Of a DNA stretch of 33,548 nt, positions 9,702-31,062 are shown one piece after another. A model generated the notes under the pieces. It saw only the letters and a list, made by a program, of their open reading frames with translations. It made no database searches and was not told the origin of the DNA. The position numbers were made by a program, and so were the translations under genes. Each line of letters starts with the position of its first letter. Positions within the stretch are counted from its first letter, which is position 1. Origin of the DNA: a virus; the IMG/VR virus record IMGVR_UViG_3300030012_001417, positions 1 to 33,548 of that record. One strand, given 5' to 3'.

Positions 9702-10256
9702 TTATTGAGTTAGTAATTTTTCTACTGTTGAATTTACTTTGTATTTTGTTTTTACTTCTTCCATTGTAAATCCTTTACTTAATGCTTCCTTTACCTTATT
9801 AAAAGCTTCTGTGCCTTTCTTAAGTTCAGGCATAGCATCTATTGTCTTCGGCATAGTTTTACCGTGTGTGTTAGTAGCATCTGCATCTTTGGTGTCATCA
9901 ATTAAGAATAAACCATTTAATGCATATTTTCTAGCATAACTAGAACTACTACCAAAAGATTGTGATAAATCCATTCCTTTTCTGTTAAAATCAATACCTG
10001 CTTGTGCAGAAGTCCAAACCTCTTGTTTACCATCAGTTACTCTTGCAGTCGCATTTACATAGGTGTAATTTACATTATCAAGATTTATTATTTCATCTGT
10101 GATAGTTAAAACTAACTTATGTTTTGTAAGCAGTGGTTTTACTGCTTCTAATATATCTTCACAACTACGGTAATTATATCTACCAAAGTTGTTCCTTTGA
10201 TTTTTAGGTGCTTTCAGTCTCCCCTGAATGTCTACCAGTTTTTCGTATATTGTCAT
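9702..10256 (-). CDS. erf: ERF-family single-strand annealing recombinase
   Basis: A 184-residue protein from the ATG at 10256. The ERF core is seen in KLVDIQGRLKAPKNQRN (NFGRYNYRS), EDILEAVKPLLTKH, and the typical FGSSSSYARKYALNGLFLI followed by DDTKDAD. ERF proteins anneal complementary single strands and pair with a 5'-3' exonuclease, here the RecE-like gene. The frame stays open to an earlier start at 10289, but those codons overlap the promoter. The -7 box ends only 4 bases before the ATG at 10256, so this start is used and the mRNA is probably leaderless or nearly so. It is the first gene of the replication operon. Confidence 0.9.
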   Translation of the reverse strand: MTIYEKLVDIQGRLKAPKNQRNNFGRYNYRSCEDILEAVKPLLTKHKLVLTITDEIINLDNVNYTYVNATARVTDGKQEVWTSAQAGIDFNRKGMDLSQSFGSSSSYARKYALNGLFLIDDTKDADATNTHGKTMPKTIDAMPELKKGTEAFNKVKEALSKGFTMEEVKTKYKVNSTVEKLLTQ

Positions 10257-10260
10257 AATG

Positions 10261-10290
10261 CAAATATATAAAAAAATTACAACTGACAAA
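10261..10290 (-). promoter_or_regulatory. Promoter of the recombination/replication operon, leaderless type
   Basis: On the minus strand TTTG (10290-10287), an 18-base spacer and TATATTTG (10268-10261) form a Bacteroidota-type promoter. The -33 box is extended as TTTGTCAGTTG, as at 391-421. Four bases separate the -7 box from the ERF ATG, so transcription must begin at or next to the start codon. Confidence 0.82.
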
Positions 10291-10296
10291 ATGTAT

Positions 10297-10325
10297 AAAA
10301 AAAGAGAGCTTAATTAAAAGCTCTC
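10297..10325 (-). terminator. Terminator after the lysis module
   Basis: An 8-bp stem (10304-10311 with 10318-10325) with a 6-base loop is followed on the minus strand by seven T (10303-10297). It ends the structural/lysis transcription unit just upstream of the ERF promoter. The 100 bases between it and the small basic gene (10326-10425) hold nothing I can assign. Confidence 0.88.
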
Positions 10326-10425
10326 ATAGGAAAAACGTAAAAACAAAAGGAGATAAATCCATCCCAAAGGTATATATAAAATTACTTGGTGTTGACAGAT
10401 TGTTAATAACAAATAAATTCTTCTG

Positions 10426-10563
10426 TTATCGTTTTCCTTGACCCCTATATTTCTTTACATATAATTTACTAGACTTTAGTCCACTAGATTTAGACTTTGC
10501 GTGTATACCTGGTCTCTTTACTTTATTTTTTTTTCTATATACAAATGCAGCTTGTCGTGCCAT
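10426..10563 (-). CDS. Small, very basic phage protein
   Basis: A 45-residue protein dominated by Lys, Arg, Ser and Gly (RPGIHAKSKSSGLKSSKLY, ending KKYRGQGKR). The pattern KRPG.HAK.KSS..K.SK.Y.K.YRGQG resembles a tiny basic protein found in many marine phages; its role is unknown, though DNA or RNA binding is plausible from charge. The ATG overlaps the holin stop as TAATG. It is the last gene before the terminator. Confidence 0.75.
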   Translation of the reverse strand: MARQAAFVYRKKNKVKRPGIHAKSKSSGLKSSKLYVKKYRGQGKR

Positions 10564-10976
10564 TATTTATGATGTTTATTACCAATTATCTTTTCTGCAC
10601 CTCTAGATCCAAAGTAACCTAAAAATACAATAGTCAGTAATTCTTTTATTACTGATAATTCTTCTAATTGTAAATACCATCCTATAACAAATGCTACAGT
10701 TAAAAATACAAGTGTAAGTGGTCTGACATTTTTAGCTAACCAACTACTACTAGCAGAATCAGCTACCCATCTTTTTGTTATGCCATCAAATTCGTGTATC
10801 TCTTGCTCTAACTTTTTAAGTGCAATTTCTTTATCACCATTAGACATTTCTGACCCACCAATGAGAGTACGAACAATATTACCAGCAGGGGAATCGCTAG
10901 CGAGACTGGTGACGACATTTGGGATTTTCTCAAGTAAGAACTTTCCAACCTTAGTATCTTTGAATTTCTTTTTCAT
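10563..10976 (-). CDS. Holin-like membrane protein (GTA 3TM holin type)
   Basis: A 137-residue protein with a soluble N-terminal half, then KRWVADSASSSWLAKNVRPL (68-87) and hydrophobic segments at about 87-102 and 108-123. The motif R..AD..S.SW.....RPL followed by membrane helices and G...R..EK matches the family described as holins of three transmembrane segments, first noted in gene transfer agents. It would permeabilise the inner membrane so that the endolysin or its effect reaches the wall. It follows the endolysin gene directly. Confidence 0.8.
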   Translation of the reverse strand: MKKKFKDTKVGKFLLEKIPNVVTSLASDSPAGNIVRTLIGGSEMSNGDKEIALKKLEQEIHEFDGITKRWVADSASSSWLAKNVRPLTLVFLTVAFVIGWYLQLEELSVIKELLTIVFLGYFGSRGAEKIIGNKHHK

Positions 10977-11870: not shown

Positions 11871-12013
11871 TTTGTTTTTTGGTATATCTGAATTATTACT
11901 AATACTATTGTTAAAATTAAAACAGCAGTTTGTAAGTACATATTAACTTGCGGCATTGAACTAAATATTAATGCAAATGCTGAAAGTCCGTATGTCCTCA
12001 AATCTGTTATCAT
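11867..12013 (-). CDS. Small membrane protein, first gene of the lysis cassette
   Basis: A 48-residue ORF with one or two hydrophobic stretches (about 9-19 and 26-43). Its ATG overlaps the LamG protein stop as TAATG, and its stop overlaps the next gene as ATGA. Near its start it repeats the TYGLS residues that end the LamG protein, encoded by an exact 15-base direct repeat. A holin role is possible. The ORF is short but tightly coupled on both sides. Confidence 0.6.
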
Positions 12014-12030
12014 TATGAAAGTCCGTATGT
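11981..12030. repeat. 15-bp direct repeat across a gene junction
   Basis: TGAAAGTCCGTATGT occurs at 11981-11995 and again at 12016-12030, 35 bases apart. The right copy encodes the C-terminal TYGLS of the LamG protein and the left copy the TYGLS near the N-terminus of the next gene. Both are read in the same register relative to the repeat. Confidence 0.85.
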
Positions 12031-14127
12031 TGCTTTATTTGCGTCAAATTCAGCAGTTACTTCGCTTGCTGATAATACTTTGTGAAATATTTTAAACTGA
12101 CCTAAAGTCAAACTGCTATAAAAAAGCGAACTTTCTCCATATCTACCAATATATAAATCAGCTTGAGCGTTCTGTCCCCCAATTCTTGTTATAGATGAAG
12201 TTGTGCTTTGTAGAGAGCCATCTTTGTAATATTTGACCTCATCGTTAACACCATCAAAAGTAAACACTAAATGAGCATAAGTATCATCACTTAAACCGCT
12301 TGCAGTTTGTAAACTATCAACACCACTACCATCGCCAACCATAACGACAAAATTACCTGATGAAAGCAAGCCGAAATGTATGTTTGAATTTATTTCGTTA
12401 TTACTTGTGGTTATATTGCTTAAAAAATAATTAGTTGTGCTTGGTGTAGCATCTGCAAATTTTATAAACATACTAATACTATATAATGGAATGTTTGGAT
12501 GTACGTATGTATCCAACTCCATATAATCATTATTGCCGTCAAACACAAATCTACTTTCATTTGGCGAGCTTAAATTAGTACCAAAAGTAGATCCGTAAAT
12601 TGTTGCATTATGTCCATTAGGATAATCATTCTTTGTGGCTAAATAGTTCTGTGCTACTTGGGCTTCACTTAAAGCACCTTTGTGAAATCGCATATCACCT
12701 AAATTACCTGTATGTATGCCATCACTATTTATACTTGTATTGTGATATATACCAAAATAAATATCACTATTTAAATCGTGATTTACTGCTGCTGTACTGT
12801 TTTGATTTATTCTTATGCCATCTATGAATATTTTGTGACCATTAGAATCAGCAGTTGCAACTATATGATACCATCTGTTTAAATCTAAAGTTCCTGCACT
12901 TAAATTACTCATTCCTGACAGACCTTGTAACATAAACTGTAAAGAACGATCACTTCTAAATGATAAATTATAATAGGTAGTGTCGTAATTAAAAGATGTT
13001 AAATATCCTTGACTTTGAGCTGTAAATTTAGCCCATACTTCCCAAGAAAACCCATCTGTATTTAAATTCACGCCTGTAACAGCGTTTGTTGTTTCTATAC
13101 CATCTCCAGTTGTACCAGACCCATCAATAAAGAAAAAATCACCAAGTTCTTTGTCGTATGTTGATTCTACACCTCCTAAAATTACAGCATCATTTGAAAG
13201 TGTACCTAAATTTGTTATACTTGTACCACTACCACTATAGTTAGATGGTCTGTAATCAATTAGTGCATTTGTAGAATAAATAGAACTAAAACTAAAAAAA
13301 TTACCTGCTCTGTAATTCTGTGCTACTTCTGAAGCAGTCAAAGCAGTATTATAAAATCTTACAACGGATAATCTTTCAGTATAAGGATGTTGGTTACTTG
13401 TGTTAAAATTACCTATTCTTACACTATTAGAATTATCTCTGAAAGTACTGATTGAATCTGAAACTTGTGAGCCACCATTTAAATACATTTTAAAATCCCC
13501 GCTACTCCCTACTGTAACAACTACGTGTATATATTCATCTGTGGCTATACTTGATGTGCTAATATTTAAATTGGTAAACCCAGTGCCGTCATCATATCTA
13601 TAAAAATAAACTTTATTTGATTGAGCCCAAAAAGCGTATGACTCGTTGCCATCTCCTGCACCTTTATTAATAATATGACAAGTTGTTGTTGGTTTCTGTA
13701 ACCAAACTTCCATTGTAGAATTAGATTCCATATCTACAAAAGAACTATCAGGAATAGTAATTAAATCTGATGCCGCACCACTAAAATCAAAATATCCCCT
13801 TGTATCACTTCCAAATGATGCGCCGCTTATTGTAGCATTTAAACCACTACCGCTTATGTCTGTCCAAGTACTTCCACTACCTCCATAAGAGGTTGTATCA
13901 CTTGCATTTAAGTGTACTTTTAAATTACTTGCTTTATCAACTAAAGGTACATTTAGATCGTGGTTAGCTATATCAAACCAAGTACCACTACCTGCACCTG
14001 TATTAGCACCACCTGATTCTATGCTATCTTCATCGTTAGCATCTAAGTGTAAAACTAATCCTTCTGCTGAATCTGCTGCTGCTGATACTGCTGCATCTTG
14101 CGAAAGTATTCTTCTATTAGTAGGCAT
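12013..14127 (-). CDS. Tail/receptor-binding protein with three LamG-like domains
   Basis: The 704-residue protein is built of concanavalin-like (LamG/laminin G) jelly-roll units, typical of glycan-binding phage tail tips. After an N-terminal region (1-27) come two short copies of an LxLHLDA-like opening motif (about 29 and 67, the latter with SGSTWTDISGSGLNATI). Domains then cover about 65-275, 280-495 and 500-704. Each ends with a similar block: RFYNTALTASEVAQNY, RFHKGALSEAQVAQNY and KIFHKVLSASEVTAEF. The internal repeats suggest domain duplication. It probably binds a host polysaccharide. It lies downstream of fibre-like genes and before the lysis cassette. Confidence 0.85.
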   Translation of the reverse strand: MPTNRRILSQDAAVSAAADSAEGLVLHLDANDEDSIESGGANTGAGSGTWFDIANHDLNVPLVDKASNLKVHLNASDTTSYGGSGSTWTDISGSGLNATISGASFGSDTRGYFDFSGAASDLITIPDSSFVDMESNSTMEVWLQKPTTTCHIINKGAGDGNESYAFWAQSNKVYFYRYDDGTGFTNLNISTSSIATDEYIHVVVTVGSSGDFKMYLNGGSQVSDSISTFRDNSNSVRIGNFNTSNQHPYTERLSVVRFYNTALTASEVAQNYRAGNFFSFSSIYSTNALIDYRPSNYSGSGTSITNLGTLSNDAVILGGVESTYDKELGDFFFIDGSGTTGDGIETTNAVTGVNLNTDGFSWEVWAKFTAQSQGYLTSFNYDTTYYNLSFRSDRSLQFMLQGLSGMSNLSAGTLDLNRWYHIVATADSNGHKIFIDGIRINQNSTAAVNHDLNSDIYFGIYHNTSINSDGIHTGNLGDMRFHKGALSEAQVAQNYLATKNDYPNGHNATIYGSTFGTNLSSPNESRFVFDGNNDYMELDTYVHPNIPLYSISMFIKFADATPSTTNYFLSNITTSNNEINSNIHFGLLSSGNFVVMVGDGSGVDSLQTASGLSDDTYAHLVFTFDGVNDEVKYYKDGSLQSTTSSITRIGGQNAQADLYIGRYGESSLFYSSLTLGQFKIFHKVLSASEVTAEFDANKATYGLS

Positions 14128-15527: not shown

Positions 15528-15638
15528 TTAATTATTTATTATATCTATTGTTTCTAATTTATTCTTTTTAAGATAACCTGAAAGTCTAATTTCGTTCTTC
15601 TCTTTCGGTTTATATTGTTTGTTTTTTTTTCTTTTCAC
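15528..15638 (-). CDS. Small basic protein with GTG start
   Basis: A 36-residue Lys-rich ORF whose GTG start overlaps the connector gene stop by 4 bases (GTGA) and whose stop lies 2 bases before the fibre gene ATG. The exact fit of the gap is the main evidence. It contains nine consecutive A early in the reading frame. No function known. Confidence 0.5.
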   Translation of the reverse strand: MKRKKNKQYKPKEKNEIRLSGYLKKNKLETIDIINN

Positions 15639-20162: not shown

Positions 20163-20321
20163 TTAATTTCCGTCTCCTGTAATATTGCCTATTCCTTGAG
20201 CTTGTAAGCTGCCATCACAACACTTAGGATGATAAGTGACACCATCAGGACATAAGCATCCTCTTTTTCCACCTTTGGGTGAAATTCTACTTACAGTTGC
20301 GTTTTTTCTTCTACGTATCAT
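20163..20321 (-). CDS. Small Cys-rich conserved phage protein
   Basis: A 52-residue protein with a basic N-terminus (MIRRRKNATVSR) and GCLCPDGVTYHPKCCDGSLQ, which contains four cysteines and one histidine, then AQGIGNI. I recall this CLC.DG...KCCDGSL.AQGIG pattern as common among small proteins in head modules of marine phages; function unknown. A metal-bound or disulphide-linked knob on the capsid is possible. Its ATG overlaps the protease fusion stop as TAATG. Confidence 0.75.
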   Translation of the reverse strand: MIRRRKNATVSRISPKGGKRGCLCPDGVTYHPKCCDGSLQAQGIGNITGDGN

Positions 20322-21892
20322 TACTTTTTACTTTTAGGATGTTTCTTAGGTAGTAAATCATAGTCCGTAGTATATTTCGGATTTTGTGGTCTACCATTTT
20401 TTACTAAATATAAAAAAGCATTGGTTCTTGCAAATGCCCACTGAGAAGCAGATCTAACCTTTGGTGAATGACTTGTATTAAATGCACCAAGTCCTCTTTG
20501 ATATACACTAGCCAACATACCTACTGTAACGCCATAACCTAATTTAGATTTGTACTTTTCATTAAATTCATTCGCTTTCTTTTGTAATGTTGCTCTATCT
20601 TTTGCAGATACCTTAGCACCTGTTTTACCTTTTGCATTTCCTTTAGCTGTACCTTTTCCTTTAGGGCTGGGGTTAGGTGTACTTGAACCAGGTGCTTTAG
20701 GTGATTTTCTGATACCACCTCTTGGACCTACTTCTGCATACATAATTTTCTTTACACATTTACCTGTTTTATCTTTTACAAACCCTTTAGGGCATTTCTG
20801 CATATCTTCTTTTATGTGTTCTTTACAAGGCATATACCAATCTTTACCTTCAAAGTTATGTACGTGAAATCCTTCACATCCAATATTTTTAGCCATCTCT
20901 TCAGCTTTCTCTTTACTAGAATATGCTAATCTATCATCTATAATTGCAAAGTCATCATCTACAACTTGAGATGCTAAATCTATTTCACCTAATTCTTTTA
21001 GTTTAGATACAGACCATCTAAGACCAGCTTTACCACCCCAAGCATCATACATTAGTTTACCACATCCATCAGAATATGTTTTAGATACTTCTAAGTCTTT
21101 TTTATGTCTAGCTAAAAAGCTTCTCATTCTTTTTATAGTAGAAACAGATAGTGGTGTTTTAGATGCCAGTTGTGAAGCTCTACGTTTTCCCACAGCAGTT
21201 CCGCAAGAACCCCAACCATTTTTATCTACATATTCCAATACTCTTTTAGCATTGTTTACTACACCTTGAGGATAGTCACTATAAGATGCAAGTTCTGTTC
21301 TTTTAGACTCTATAAAGTCTTTTACTTCAAATAGTATTTCTTCTGCTTCAGATTCATCTAGTAATTCTGTACTCATTTCTATTTTATCTGTAAAATACCC
21401 TTCTATAGAAAAACCTGAAACCTTACCTGTCTTAACATAATTTTCCCAAACATCATCGTTGTTTACTTTCATAGAGACCATCCAAGTTCCTACAGGTAAA
21501 TCCATATTGTATTTCTTAGATTTATCGTGTACTTCATCTTCTATTATCCAGGATTCTACTACAGACAAACCATTTAATGATGCTTGATGTTCTAGTGTAG
21601 ATTTATTCTGATTGCCTTTCATAAGAAATAGTTCTGATGCTTTTCTTACTGTATCTTCTGAAAAGTATATATAATATTCATCATCTTCTGTTTGACGATA
21701 TATATTTTTGTTTGGCACTAAAGCAGCACCCATTAGTATTCTCTTTTCAGAATCTACTTCTGCTAATTGTATTTTATGATCTTTTGATAAAGCAATAAAC
21801 TTTTCTTCTATAGCAGGTTTGTCAACTATACTAATAGCTTCTATTCCTGCAAGTAATGCTTCATCGTCTATTATTAATTCTATAATTCTCAT
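20321..21892 (-). CDS. XkdF-like prohead protease fused to two further domains
   Basis: The 523-residue protein has at least three parts. Residues 1-170 match the Peptidase S78_2/XkdF prohead protease: VDKPAIEEKFIAL near 23, MGAALVPNKNIYR (54-66), the candidate catalytic histidine in LEHQ (His102) and the serine in KVSGFSIEGYF (Ser159 or Ser162). Residues about 207-330 are a second domain (SCGTAVGKRRASQLASK, MYDAWGGKAGLRW) often found after such proteases. After a Pro/Lys/Gly-rich linker (395-430), residues 435-523 match the DUF5824 pattern (GVTVGMLASVYQRGLGAFNT, ASQWAFARTNAFL). The protease should mature scaffold and capsid; the roles of the extra domains are unknown. Autocleavage in the linker is plausible. 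Confidence 0.82.
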   Translation of the reverse strand: MRIIELIIDDEALLAGIEAISIVDKPAIEEKFIALSKDHKIQLAEVDSEKRILMGAALVPNKNIYRQTEDDEYYIYFSEDTVRKASELFLMKGNQNKSTLEHQASLNGLSVVESWIIEDEVHDKSKKYNMDLPVGTWMVSMKVNNDDVWENYVKTGKVSGFSIEGYFTDKIEMSTELLDESEAEEILFEVKDFIESKRTELASYSDYPQGVVNNAKRVLEYVDKNGWGSCGTAVGKRRASQLASKTPLSVSTIKRMRSFLARHKKDLEVSKTYSDGCGKLMYDAWGGKAGLRWSVSKLKELGEIDLASQVVDDDFAIIDDRLAYSSKEKAEEMAKNIGCEGFHVHNFEGKDWYMPCKEHIKEDMQKCPKGFVKDKTGKCVKKIMYAEVGPRGGIRKSPKAPGSSTPNPSPKGKGTAKGNAKGKTGAKVSAKDRATLQKKANEFNEKYKSKLGYGVTVGMLASVYQRGLGAFNTSHSPKVRSASQWAFARTNAFLYLVKNGRPQNPKYTTDYDLLPKKHPKSKK

Positions 21893-24057
21893 ATTCCTGC
21901 TGTGTTATTTATATTTCTATCTAATTCTTGTTGTGATGTAATTTCTTTACCTACTACAAATGCTTTTACTGGTTTAGTAACCTGTCCTGATACACTTTGT
22001 GCTAATTGTGATACTTGAGATGCACCTACCACATTAAAGTCAGGTGCTGTAGCTTTAATTGTTGGCTTTTGTGCTGCACCAGCACTACCACTACCTGATC
22101 CTTTGGGATTAACAGAAGCTATAGCTTTTACATTTGCTAAACCACTAGCTATCGCAGCAGCAGCAGCAATAGCACCTCTTACTGGAGAATCTACTATTGC
22201 CATTGGTTTAAATTGTGATTCAAAAGCTTTTTGTGCAGAAAGATATGTTGATATTAATGTAGCCGATATAGCTAAAGCTTTACCCAATTTTGTATCTTCC
22301 CCAGCTAATTTACTAAAAGCAGTTAAAGCACCACCGACTAGCTTTAAACTTTCTACTTTTGCATCAGCTTCAATATTATACAATTTTGTTCTTAAATCTG
22401 TCTCTTTGCCTACAGCTTTAGTAAGCTCAAGTTCTGTATTTACTAGCTCTAAATTCATATCCATTAAGGTAGCAAAACCAGTAGCCTTTTCAGATTCACT
22501 TAGACCAGAATCAGGGTCATTTAACTTCTCTTCTAGCCTTGCTGTAGCTACTTCTAAATCACTTTTTTTACCTTCTAATCTTCCTACTTCAGATGTTGCA
22601 GCTTTTAACTCTTGGTCAAATATTTCTCTACTCAAATTTAAACCTTCTCTACGACTCGCAGTGAGACCTTTTTGTTTAATACTGAGGGCATCTAAAGTAA
22701 AGCCAAGACCAACTTCTAGAAGTCTGATTTTTGTAAGGGTATCAGCAGCATCCATTATTCTTTCTCTATTAAGCTGCGTTAGTTTAGTGTTTGTAACTGC
22801 TTTTATTTGTACTATAACATCGCTAACAGAATTTTCTGCTTTTGTTATAGAATCATCAAATTTTCTGTTTGCATCATCTATAACTTGTTGTTCTTTTTGT
22901 TTTGATAGTTTTCTTGCTTTTGTTTGTGATATAAAGTCTCTTTTTCTTAATTCTTCTTTTGCTTTAAATGTTTCAAGCTGTATTCTTAATTCAGAAATTC
23001 TAAATTCTTCTTCTTGTTTTATTAATTCTTCTTTCGTCTTTAAATCATTATCTATAGATTCTTGCCTATATTGTTCTTCTAATTTTTTAAGTTGTAATAT
23101 ACCTTCTTTGAATAATCTTACTCTAGCTTTTGTTTCTTTACCTGATTCTCTTGTAAACAGCTTTTCTAATTCTATTAACTCCCTAATTATTTCCTTACGT
23201 TCACCAGTAAGTCGAATATATCTTTTTTGACCATCATCCGTTTGATCTTTTACTGCTTCTTTTAATTTTTCTTCTGTCACAATAAGGTCTTTTTGTCGTT
23301 TAAGTAATCTCATATAAGACTTTATAAGACTATTAACACTAGCATCAACTTTATCTAATCCTTTGTCTTTTAGATTTTGTAAGCCAACTTTGAATTTACG
23401 AAATTCAAATGACAATATTTTTGATATATCTGCTGTAGCGTTACCAGTCTGATTATATCTTAAATATGTACCAGCTAAATTATCTAAAGAATCTATTTGT
23501 TCATCTAAGGTTTTAGTTAAGTCTTTAAGTTTTTCATCAAACTCTTTAGCTGCTTTTTCTGCTTGAAAAAAGAAGTTATAGATATCATCACCAAAAGATA
23601 TTAAAAACTGGATAGCAATTATCACCCCACCTGAACCTAAAAGACTTCTACCTAATGTTTTAAATGATGAAATAACACCACCGTTAGTCCTAGCAAAACT
23701 TTGAAATAAACTTATAAGCTGTGATAAGTTGTTTGCTATCGCTGTAAATCCAAAACTAGCATCTGAAGCAAGTCTACCTGTCTCTAACAATATAGCATTA
23801 CTTAATCCTGATTGCGCTCTATTATTTTTTGATGCTGCAGCAGCATTGATTTCAGCTAAAGCTAATTCTTGAACTTGCTTTTTGGTAATCTGTCTTTGTA
23901 AATTAAGTTTTTGTTCTGCGACTAAAGATCTGAGTTGCCCTTTTGACAAATTATCTATTGATACAGCATAATTATCTGTAGCTTGTTTTATTTCCCTAAT
24001 TTTACTTTTGGCTTCTCCTGACTGGAGATTTATCCTAATTAGAATTTCCTCTGCCAT
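21889..24057 (-). CDS. Tape measure protein
   Basis: The 722-residue, mostly helical protein sets tail length. At about 1.5 angstrom per residue the tail would be near 108 nm. It has long Lys/Glu/Leu-rich coiled coils (about 200-480), one hydrophobic segment (GGVIIAIQFLISF near 142-154) that could insert in the host membrane, and an Ala/Gly-rich C-terminal part (about 580-665). The opposite strand carries a long open frame that is only a shadow of its biased codons. The start lies inside the preceding 52-codon gene and the stop overlaps the protease ATG. Confidence 0.9.
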   Translation of the reverse strand: MAEEILIRINLQSGEAKSKIREIKQATDNYAVSIDNLSKGQLRSLVAEQKLNLQRQITKKQVQELALAEINAAAASKNNRAQSGLSNAILLETGRLASDASFGFTAIANNLSQLISLFQSFARTNGGVISSFKTLGRSLLGSGGVIIAIQFLISFGDDIYNFFFQAEKAAKEFDEKLKDLTKTLDEQIDSLDNLAGTYLRYNQTGNATADISKILSFEFRKFKVGLQNLKDKGLDKVDASVNSLIKSYMRLLKRQKDLIVTEEKLKEAVKDQTDDGQKRYIRLTGERKEIIRELIELEKLFTRESGKETKARVRLFKEGILQLKKLEEQYRQESIDNDLKTKEELIKQEEEFRISELRIQLETFKAKEELRKRDFISQTKARKLSKQKEQQVIDDANRKFDDSITKAENSVSDVIVQIKAVTNTKLTQLNRERIMDAADTLTKIRLLEVGLGFTLDALSIKQKGLTASRREGLNLSREIFDQELKAATSEVGRLEGKKSDLEVATARLEEKLNDPDSGLSESEKATGFATLMDMNLELVNTELELTKAVGKETDLRTKLYNIEADAKVESLKLVGGALTAFSKLAGEDTKLGKALAISATLISTYLSAQKAFESQFKPMAIVDSPVRGAIAAAAAIASGLANVKAIASVNPKGSGSGSAGAAQKPTIKATAPDFNVVGASQVSQLAQSVSGQVTKPVKAFVVGKEITSQQELDRNINNTAGI

Positions 24058-29319: not shown

Positions 29320-29817
29320 CTATGCAAATTTTATGTTTTTATCCCCAATATCAAATCCTTGCTGTCTTAGTATATCTTTTATAGAAACTTCTAAATCTTC
29401 TACAAACGGTGCAATAAGTTTTAAATTACCACGTTCTCTATCTACAAGTGGTTTTATAAATACATTTTTATTTATACCTACTCTACGTATTTTAAGTGTT
29501 ACTCTACTAGCTATTTTTCTTAAACTAAGTGTACCATATAAGACAACAGGTTTTTGTATTAACCAATCAGCTATATCTGATACTTGTGGTAATTTAGTTG
29601 GTTTACCACCTTTTTCTATAGTTTTAAGATAATCGTTACCTACAATCTCAATTCCAAAAGCATCTAAAGAATCTTCTACAATATTTTGTCTAAGTGAATC
29701 TTTAGCAGCACCAGTATATGTAATTTTCTTGTTATCTAAGCTTTGCTTGAGTAATCTAATAAGTCTTTCAGAATAAGACTTCAAATATGCTTTTGTATTA
29801 TCTAATTTTATTGACAT
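29320..29817 (-). CDS. Head-tail joining protein, HK97 gp10-like (probable)
   Basis: A 165-residue basic protein: helical N-terminus (NTKAYLKSYSERLIRLLKQS), ARKR-type strand region (LKIRRVGINKNVFIKPLVDR) and an alternating C-terminus. Size and layout match HK97 gp10/virion morphogenesis-type proteins, which sit next to the tail completion gene. It overlaps the upstream tail completion gene by 10 bases. Family membership is inferred. Confidence 0.6.
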   Translation of the reverse strand: MSIKLDNTKAYLKSYSERLIRLLKQSLDNKKITYTGAAKDSLRQNIVEDSLDAFGIEIVGNDYLKTIEKGGKPTKLPQVSDIADWLIQKPVVLYGTLSLRKIASRVTLKIRRVGINKNVFIKPLVDRERGNLKLIAPFVEDLEVSIKDILRQQGFDIGDKNIKFA

Positions 29818-30299
29818 TCTGTTCCGTCTCTATTTATTAGTGCCATATCATTATTAGGTGTTCTAATCGATAAATCCATTGACCAACCTGTAACTTTATT
29901 TTCAAACTTATCTTCAAATAACTGAGCTGTAGGATCTGTGTTTAGATGAAATAAATCATCATATAGCTCACCTCTTCTAATTGCAGACTGTATACCATTG
30001 ACAACTGTAAGAAGTGTATTTTGTATATCGTGCTTATTATCTAAACCTAAATGTGGTTTTGCTTTATCTTGCTTATCATCTTTATCCTCATCTACCAAAT
30101 CCATCACAACAACATTTATGTTAATATTCATAATGTGTTCTGCAAAAGCTACGTTTTGAATATTTATATGTGCCAGTGGAAAAATAGTTTGTTTTGATAA
30201 ATCAACTTCTAATAAATCACCAAAGGTTACGGTATTTATAGAAGTGTTACCATTTAGGTAAGTGTGTAATTTATCAATAATATTATAATAGCTTCTCAT
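29808..30299 (-). CDS. Tail completion / tail terminator-like protein
   Basis: A 163-residue protein with MRSYYNIIDKLHTYL, then TVTFGDLLEVDLSKQT and IFPLAHINI. This pattern is widespread in phages of Bacteroidota, usually annotated as tail terminator or neck protein. The acidic DLVDEDKDDKQDKAK stretch (about 67-81) is an insertion-type loop. The ATG overlaps the stop of the frameshift frame upstream as TAATG, which supports that frame as the genuine end of the chaperone. Confidence 0.68.
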   Translation of the reverse strand: MRSYYNIIDKLHTYLNGNTSINTVTFGDLLEVDLSKQTIFPLAHINIQNVAFAEHIMNININVVVMDLVDEDKDDKQDKAKPHLGLDNKHDIQNTLLTVVNGIQSAIRRGELYDDLFHLNTDPTAQLFEDKFENKVTGWSMDLSIRTPNNDMALINRDGTECQ

Positions 30300-31062
30300 T
30301 AAAACTTCTTTTTTATCATTTGTCTTTCAAGATCGTTCTTTTGCTTTTCAAACGAGAGGAAGGTGAGACATTGGTGTATCGGAAGTTTTGTAACTTCGTC
30401 AAATTTTCTAACATCTCCTCTAGCGAGTGCATAAATTGATTGATACCAACCCCATTTTTTTCCAAAGCTTCCTTCAAGTCCGATGTTGTATCCTTCTTCA
30501 CTGTCTTGCGAATATAAGTCAGGGTAGCTTGTGATAATTCGATCCCTAAACGATAAAAAAAAACCGTACAACCCATTACTACGTTAAGTGGCATTTCTTT
30601 CATCAAATGACTTATTTCATCAGATGGTGAATAATCTGCAATCGTATATCTTTGTTTCTTCTTGAAGTTAACTGGTCTGTAAAGTACAGCCATAGCTTTG
30701 TGCATATTTTGCCAATCTCCAAGAAAGTTTTCTGTGTCTACATATTCACCTAAACTCATATCATCTAATTTTGGTATGAATCCCATTTGCACATCTAGTA
30801 ATTTAAATAATTGCACCAGTTCATAATCTTTATCAAAAGCACCTGAAATAACATTCACTACTTTTATTACATCTTTGTAAGCAACTTTGTCAACCAGGTC
30901 TTCTTCTATGGCACAGAAATGTTGAATTAGCTTTTTGTTGATTGTTTTGGCATCTTTCTCAGGATCTAACTTGTCTATGTCTTTTAGATAGTTTTGATAT
31001 TGACCTAGTGTTACCTCAGCTAGTGAGTTTGGTACAATAATCTTTACTTTTTCTTTTATCAT
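30299..31062 (-). CDS. Tail assembly chaperone-like gene with a -1 frameshift
   Basis: The zero frame starts at 31062 and can run to a stop at 30316 (248 residues). At codons 167-169 it crosses T9 (30563-30555), giving the slippery T TTT TTT. A -1 slip gives a 254-residue product ending at 30299-30301. The -1 frame continues with FLSFRDRIITSYPDLYSQD and KKWGWYQSIYALARG (DVRKFDEVTKLP), which resembles the conserved C-terminus of this phage family. Its wobble codons are AT-rich like the rest of the genome, and its stop overlaps the next ATG (TAATG). The zero-frame tail is GC-richer at third positions. Siphophage chaperone genes often use such shifts to make short and long products. A truly split gene or an assembly error at A9 remains possible. 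Confidence 0.75.
30555..30563 (-). other. T9 slippery run, candidate -1 frameshift site
   Basis: Nine consecutive A on the plus strand read as T9 in the mRNA strand. The zero-frame codons are GTT TTT TTT TAT. A -1 slip in the P and A sites re-pairs perfectly and continues with TTA TCG. I did not see a convincing pseudoknot downstream by eye. Confidence 0.72.

Follow-up and report, generated by a model that had tools for sequence, protein, structure and literature searches.

When both reading frames stay open beyond a -1 slip, does each encode a functional protein ending, or is one of them a by-product of base composition? The question is raised by a gene on the minus strand of a 33,548-base contig from an uncultivated virus, the whole of which (the window) was analyzed here. 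The original prediction placed a programmed -1 frameshift in a tail assembly chaperone gene at this locus and offered both explanations for the open zero frame.

Two overlapping frames at a T9 run

The zero-frame ORF (30316..31062, minus strand) specifies a G-like product of 248 aa, consisting of an N-terminal domain of ~167 residues and then the zero-frame tail. The T9 run is located at 30555..30563 on the same strand, as had been claimed, and contains the slip heptamer T TTT TTT at 30562-30556. From the slip to its stop, the -1 frame (30299..30562, minus strand) encodes a T-like C-terminal domain, with the motif WGWY at about 30454-30443, and the fusion is 254 aa long; both product lengths agree with those first given. 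The -1 frame closes with TAA at 30301-30299, which overlaps the ATG of the next gene in the expected TAATG arrangement. That gene (29808..30299, minus strand) encodes a 163-aa protein matching phrog_30964, annotated as unknown function. Past the slip, the zero frame is open for 81 codons (about 80 had been estimated), so that ~245 nt are open in both frames.

The window is rich in A+T, and a T9 run alone is unremarkable in it (three found versus 7.1 expected in shuffles); the significance of this one comes from conservation of the site across 399 loci, not from its rarity in the window. The two other T9 runs, at 10526-10534 and 15622-15630 on the plus strand, are close to gene boundaries and read as A9 on the gene strand.

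The slip site is conserved among relatives

The queries in the search for homologues were the zero-frame protein, the -1 protein, and alignments built from them. Several hundred loci were recovered from IMG/VR viral contigs, a few genomes and metagenome-assembled genomes of Flavobacteriaceae and other Bacteroidota, and Nonlabens phage P12024L. After removal of duplicates and exclusion of loci cut by a contig end, 399 distinct loci matched in full. All of these (399/399) have a canonical X XXY YYZ heptamer, a count that requires the WGW motif and an in-register heptamer: TTTTTTT in 386, AAATTTT in nine, GGGTTTT in three, and TTTTTTC in one. The heptamer falls at the same codon across the 399 loci, which come from many independent assemblies and of which 385 carry T9 or T10. 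The T9 site is also present in the three contig-end-cut loci that carry the -1 domain. In one further locus, additional to the 399, a weak CTTTTTA (around 3000-3020 of L355) takes the place of the canonical heptamer, and both frames are open nonetheless. In a tree built from the N-terminal domain and rooted at its midpoint, the A AAT TTT group forms a supported clade nested among T9 members; this clade keeps both frames without a long homopolymer.

Homopolymers are error-prone, and an assembly or sequencing error in the run could in principle split one continuous gene in two. However, the same arrangement recurs across many independent assemblies (399 loci) and in a cultured phage, P12024L; one clade has no long run; and the zero frame is under selection downstream of the slip. 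The probability of such an error is negligible, and the run was nine or ten T long in nearly all members.

A single frame continuous across both halves was likewise absent from the readable sequences: in a scan of all ORFs at the 417 loci carrying the -1 domain, none was matched by both the G-domain and the T-domain profiles. Five loci had G without T, all of them cut at contig ends. An ATG in the -1 frame ahead of WGWY occurs in only 2/64 representatives, the other 62 having no usable ATG, which disfavors internal initiation of the -1 ORF. Because a start codon is nearly absent and the halves never share an ORF, the -1 half would hardly be made except by a change of frame.

Both the G model and the -1 model match some BFVD entries (about 226-267 aa), which may be distant relatives fused in a single frame. 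For Flavobacterium phage 6H, a Foldseek lead, the profile gave no match to its record, and an equivalent slip could not be read cleanly. In that phage, a gene on the minus strand (about 10050-10927) has a length that fits the structural match, and its frame breaks near a T6 run. A T-like sequence follows downstream in another frame; a frameshift or a sequence error is possible there.

Both frames downstream of the slip are under selection

Chance openness of the zero frame was assessed with a null model of synonymous recoding, in which the -1 protein and each locus's own codon usage were kept. Under this null, an average of 4.5% of cases would keep the zero frame open to codon 55, whereas it is open in 64/65 representatives. 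Among representatives with a zero frame open to codon 28, the expectation is that 12/64 stay open as far as codon 55, against 64/64 observed. Across codons 4-50 of 92 representatives (<70% identical), nine zero-frame stops were observed versus 160.3 expected. Applied to single-coding controls, the same null gave observed/expected counts of 1155/1163 (upstream, same geometry), 1179/1153 (upstream, other frame), and 278/237 (after the zero-frame stop). These ratios of 0.99, 1.02, and 1.17 indicate that the null is well calibrated. Since the null retains the -1 protein and the codon usage, composition is not the cause of the open zero frame. The suggestion that the extension is a by-product of local GC-richness was rejected on the same stop counts, and the G+C content of the overlap is only slightly raised (38.5% versus 32.6% upstream).

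Synonymous divergence in 59 independent pairs fell from 0.367 upstream to 0.143 in the overlap (-1 frame) and rose to 0.245 after the zero-frame stop. Selection on each frame was estimated as dNN/dNS with an OLGenie-like count, our own implementation of the idea in PMC7531306. The zero frame of the overlap gave 0.50 (0.42-0.59) compared with 0.89 (0.79-1.01) and 1.10 (0.79-1.73) in controls, and the -1 frame gave 0.34 (0.29-0.39); both values indicate purifying selection. In the first 24 codons the zero frame is the more strongly constrained (0.46 versus 0.65 for the -1 frame); over the rest of the overlap it is the -1 frame (0.24 versus 0.57 for the zero frame), with the zero frame constrained right to the end. 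Altering the transition weight moved every dNN/dNS ratio and the contrast persisted; in more divergent pairs the contrast was weaker and in the same direction (0.76 versus 0.98).

The open zero frame could instead be a shadow cast by the -1 protein and base composition in an ordinary gpG/gpGT gene whose only functional ending is the -1 domain. The zero-frame motif GVGINQFMHSLEEM does partly mirror the -1 motif WGWYQSIYALA, and not all relatives have a long zero tail, yet a shadow is hard to reconcile with a calibrated null that already keeps the -1 protein and codon usage, or with zero-frame dNN/dNS values that stay well under those of controls right up to where the overlap ends. We regard a mere shadow as very unlikely. 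Comparison of the related loci instead shows a conserved slip site, two frames open beyond chance, and purifying selection on both, so the stretch at 30316..30561 (minus strand), where the 81-codon zero-frame tail lies over the -1 domain, is best read as dual coding. Both endings can be read in hundreds of related viruses, and therefore both appear to matter.

Lengths of the two products

The zero-frame tail has a median length of 63 codons over the 399 loci, against 81 in the window, and is mostly 50-94 codons in relatives. It measures at least 50 codons in 358/399 loci, 40-49 in 20, and less than 40 in 21. Short tails are found in the P12024 clade (18-27 codons), in a second subfamily (27-43), in one other locus (nine; L365), and in scattered cases, which indicates that some relatives can do without a long zero tail. 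In the N-terminal-domain tree the branch leading to P12024 is very long, and its short tail may be either ancestral or derived. The two tails had been described as nearly equal. This holds in the window (248/254), one of 67 loci in which the products differ by 10 aa or less, but not across the family, where the -1 product exceeds its zero-frame counterpart by 24 aa at the median (330 loci). In most members the two frames end no more than about 30 codons apart.

How the frame probably changes

On the comparative evidence, a programmed -1 slip appears to link the two overlapping frames, with a coding tail in each, in agreement with the original prediction. The T TTT TTT heptamer is compatible with tandem ribosomal slippage, and a T9 run alone would also suit slippage by polymerase. 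Homopolymers of roughly nine T or A are established substrates for slippage, and nearly every member has T9 or T10, so the second product might come from RNA polymerase slipping on T9, with the dual-coding logic unchanged. Only four T are present in the A AAT TTT clade, however, which favors the ribosome, and the flanking T are also explained by the encoded residues (V/L/I before and Y/W after). Polymerase slippage is thus quite unlikely. Among the representatives, no conserved stimulatory RNA structure was found downstream of the slip; folding of the first 40 nt is marginally more favorable than in shuffles (mean z -0.6), and only a few representatives have Shine-Dalgarno-like motifs.

We consider it highly probable, from the sequences compared, that this is a virion-assembly gene of flavobacterial phages, likely a tail chaperone, in which a -1 slip exchanges two selected C-terminal domains. 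Ribosomes that stay in frame would make G, the N-terminal domain with the helical zero-frame tail, and those that slip -1 at T TTT TTT, A AAT TTT, or G GGT TTT would make GT, the same N-terminal domain with a wholly different, WGWY-containing C-terminal domain. The two endings would share the same ~200-250 nt, both maintained by selection, and the frameshift would swap C-terminal domains rather than lengthen a short protein. The slippage would be ribosomal, not transcriptional, and G would presumably be more abundant than GT. The T-like domain may recruit tail tube subunits, and the G tail may act in tape-measure binding or self-association.

Comparison with known frameshifted genes

In lambda gpG/gpGT, P2 E/E', and HK97 gp13/14, a small G gene likewise has, close to its end, a -1 slip that adds a T-like domain from an overlapping frame, and those genes, as probably the present one, lie in the virion-assembly region of long-tailed phages. 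No sequence similarity was found between the present gene and the lambda, P2, or HK97 chaperones, and the lambda slip is GGGAAAG instead of T9. After the slip, the unshifted frame runs for about 18 nt (about 6 codons) in lambda and 20 nt in P2, whereas here it runs for ~245 nt and is under selection. In SEA-PHAGES genomes it stops on average 26 nt after the slip (PMC10885494). The unshifted product here does not end soon after the slip, and GT is not a plain extension of G. The gene would operate in the gpG/gpGT manner. Given its departures in the length of the unshifted tail, in the selection on that tail, and in position, as it does not adjoin the likely tape measure gene in the gpG/gpGT-type placement, we did not file it in that family. 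In a literature search, mainly of openly readable papers, no description was found of a tail chaperone whose zero-frame overlap is both long and selected.

The Nonlabens (Persicivirga) phages P12024L/S carry clear homologues (genes 40/41 and 38/39; phrog_32199 and phrog_38404) that share the T9 slip and are annotated as two separate hypothetical proteins without a frameshift; the zero-frame tail of P12024L is only 27 codons. RNA viruses also have overlapping genes that are reached by frameshifting, with both frames under selection. Those are viruses of eukaryotes with unrelated proteins, whereas the present case is a small phage gene whose two frames mostly end near each other.

With moderate confidence, we think that a widespread group of flavobacterial phages uses a programmed -1 frameshift to switch between two C-terminal domains, mutually exclusive and each functional in its own right, that are encoded by the same DNA, such that the unshifted chaperone would have a dedicated domain and would not be a mere truncation. 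Textbook frameshifted chaperones stop soon after the slip, whereas hundreds of phages here seem to bear the cost of dual coding for an unshifted ending, and the role of the G-only C terminus in tail assembly becomes a testable question. The gene is invisible to current annotation: in cultured relatives it is listed as two unrelated hypothetical proteins, and the searched libraries contain no model joining them. The roughly 400 loci are also a large natural data set for selection in overlapping frames.

Predicted structures, gene neighborhood, and probable function

The N-terminal domain was predicted with high confidence, and a predicted helix (159-190) spans the slip. Both alternative tails are helical in the predictions. 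The zero-frame tail has helices at 194-203 and 206-221, with moderate confidence beyond residue ~190 and disorder at 228-248, and the -1 domain has helices after WGWY with a pLDDT of about 85. Neither the Pfam, NCBIfam, and PHROGs profile libraries nor sequence and fold searches of the PDB gave an annotated family or a convincing solved-structure resemblance for either product, which does not imply a new fold. Structural searches pointed to unnamed phage proteins and to P12024S, and only weakly to Flavobacterium phage 6H and to a BFVD entry labelled as a tail assembly chaperone (E 0.048, prob 0.96).

The probable tape measure is a 722-aa protein (21889..24057, minus strand) encoded five genes downstream from the frameshift gene, and so not adjacent to it; the protein is helical and coiled-coil-like by sequence reading and matches phrog_30292, annotated as unknown function. 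After it come a PF14550 protein that resembles a protease and the probable genes for capsid and portal, several of these identities also coming from sequence reading. These neighbors place the frameshift gene in the virion-gene part of the contig. It does not lie between major tail protein and tape measure genes, a statement that depends on the putative identity of the tape measure. In P12024L it directly follows the terminase gene, beside two small genes.

A -1 frameshift in the G gene, giving a G plus T pair, is a hallmark of tail chaperones in long-tailed phages (PMC5009743), and by this analogy and the gene context the frameshifted gene is most likely a tail assembly chaperone. The name first proposed is thus retained, with no significant family match behind it. 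The lack of such a match, the position after terminase in P12024L, and the distance from the likely tape measure gene would also suit another virion-assembly protein, for example a connector or neck factor; against the hallmark we consider this unlikely, and a tail chaperone remains our preferred reading.

Three other ORFs in the window are worth noting. A 375-codon ORF with a TTG start (22103-23230, plus strand) is antisense to the probable tape measure gene and is probably a composition artefact. The 523-aa ORF at 20321-21892 (minus strand) has an unusual combination of an XkdF-like protease domain (PF14550) with DUF3721 and DUF5824. A 704-aa protein (12013-14127, minus strand) contains three Laminin_G_3 stretches (E 8.5e-45) and is probably a carbohydrate-binding tail or decoration protein.
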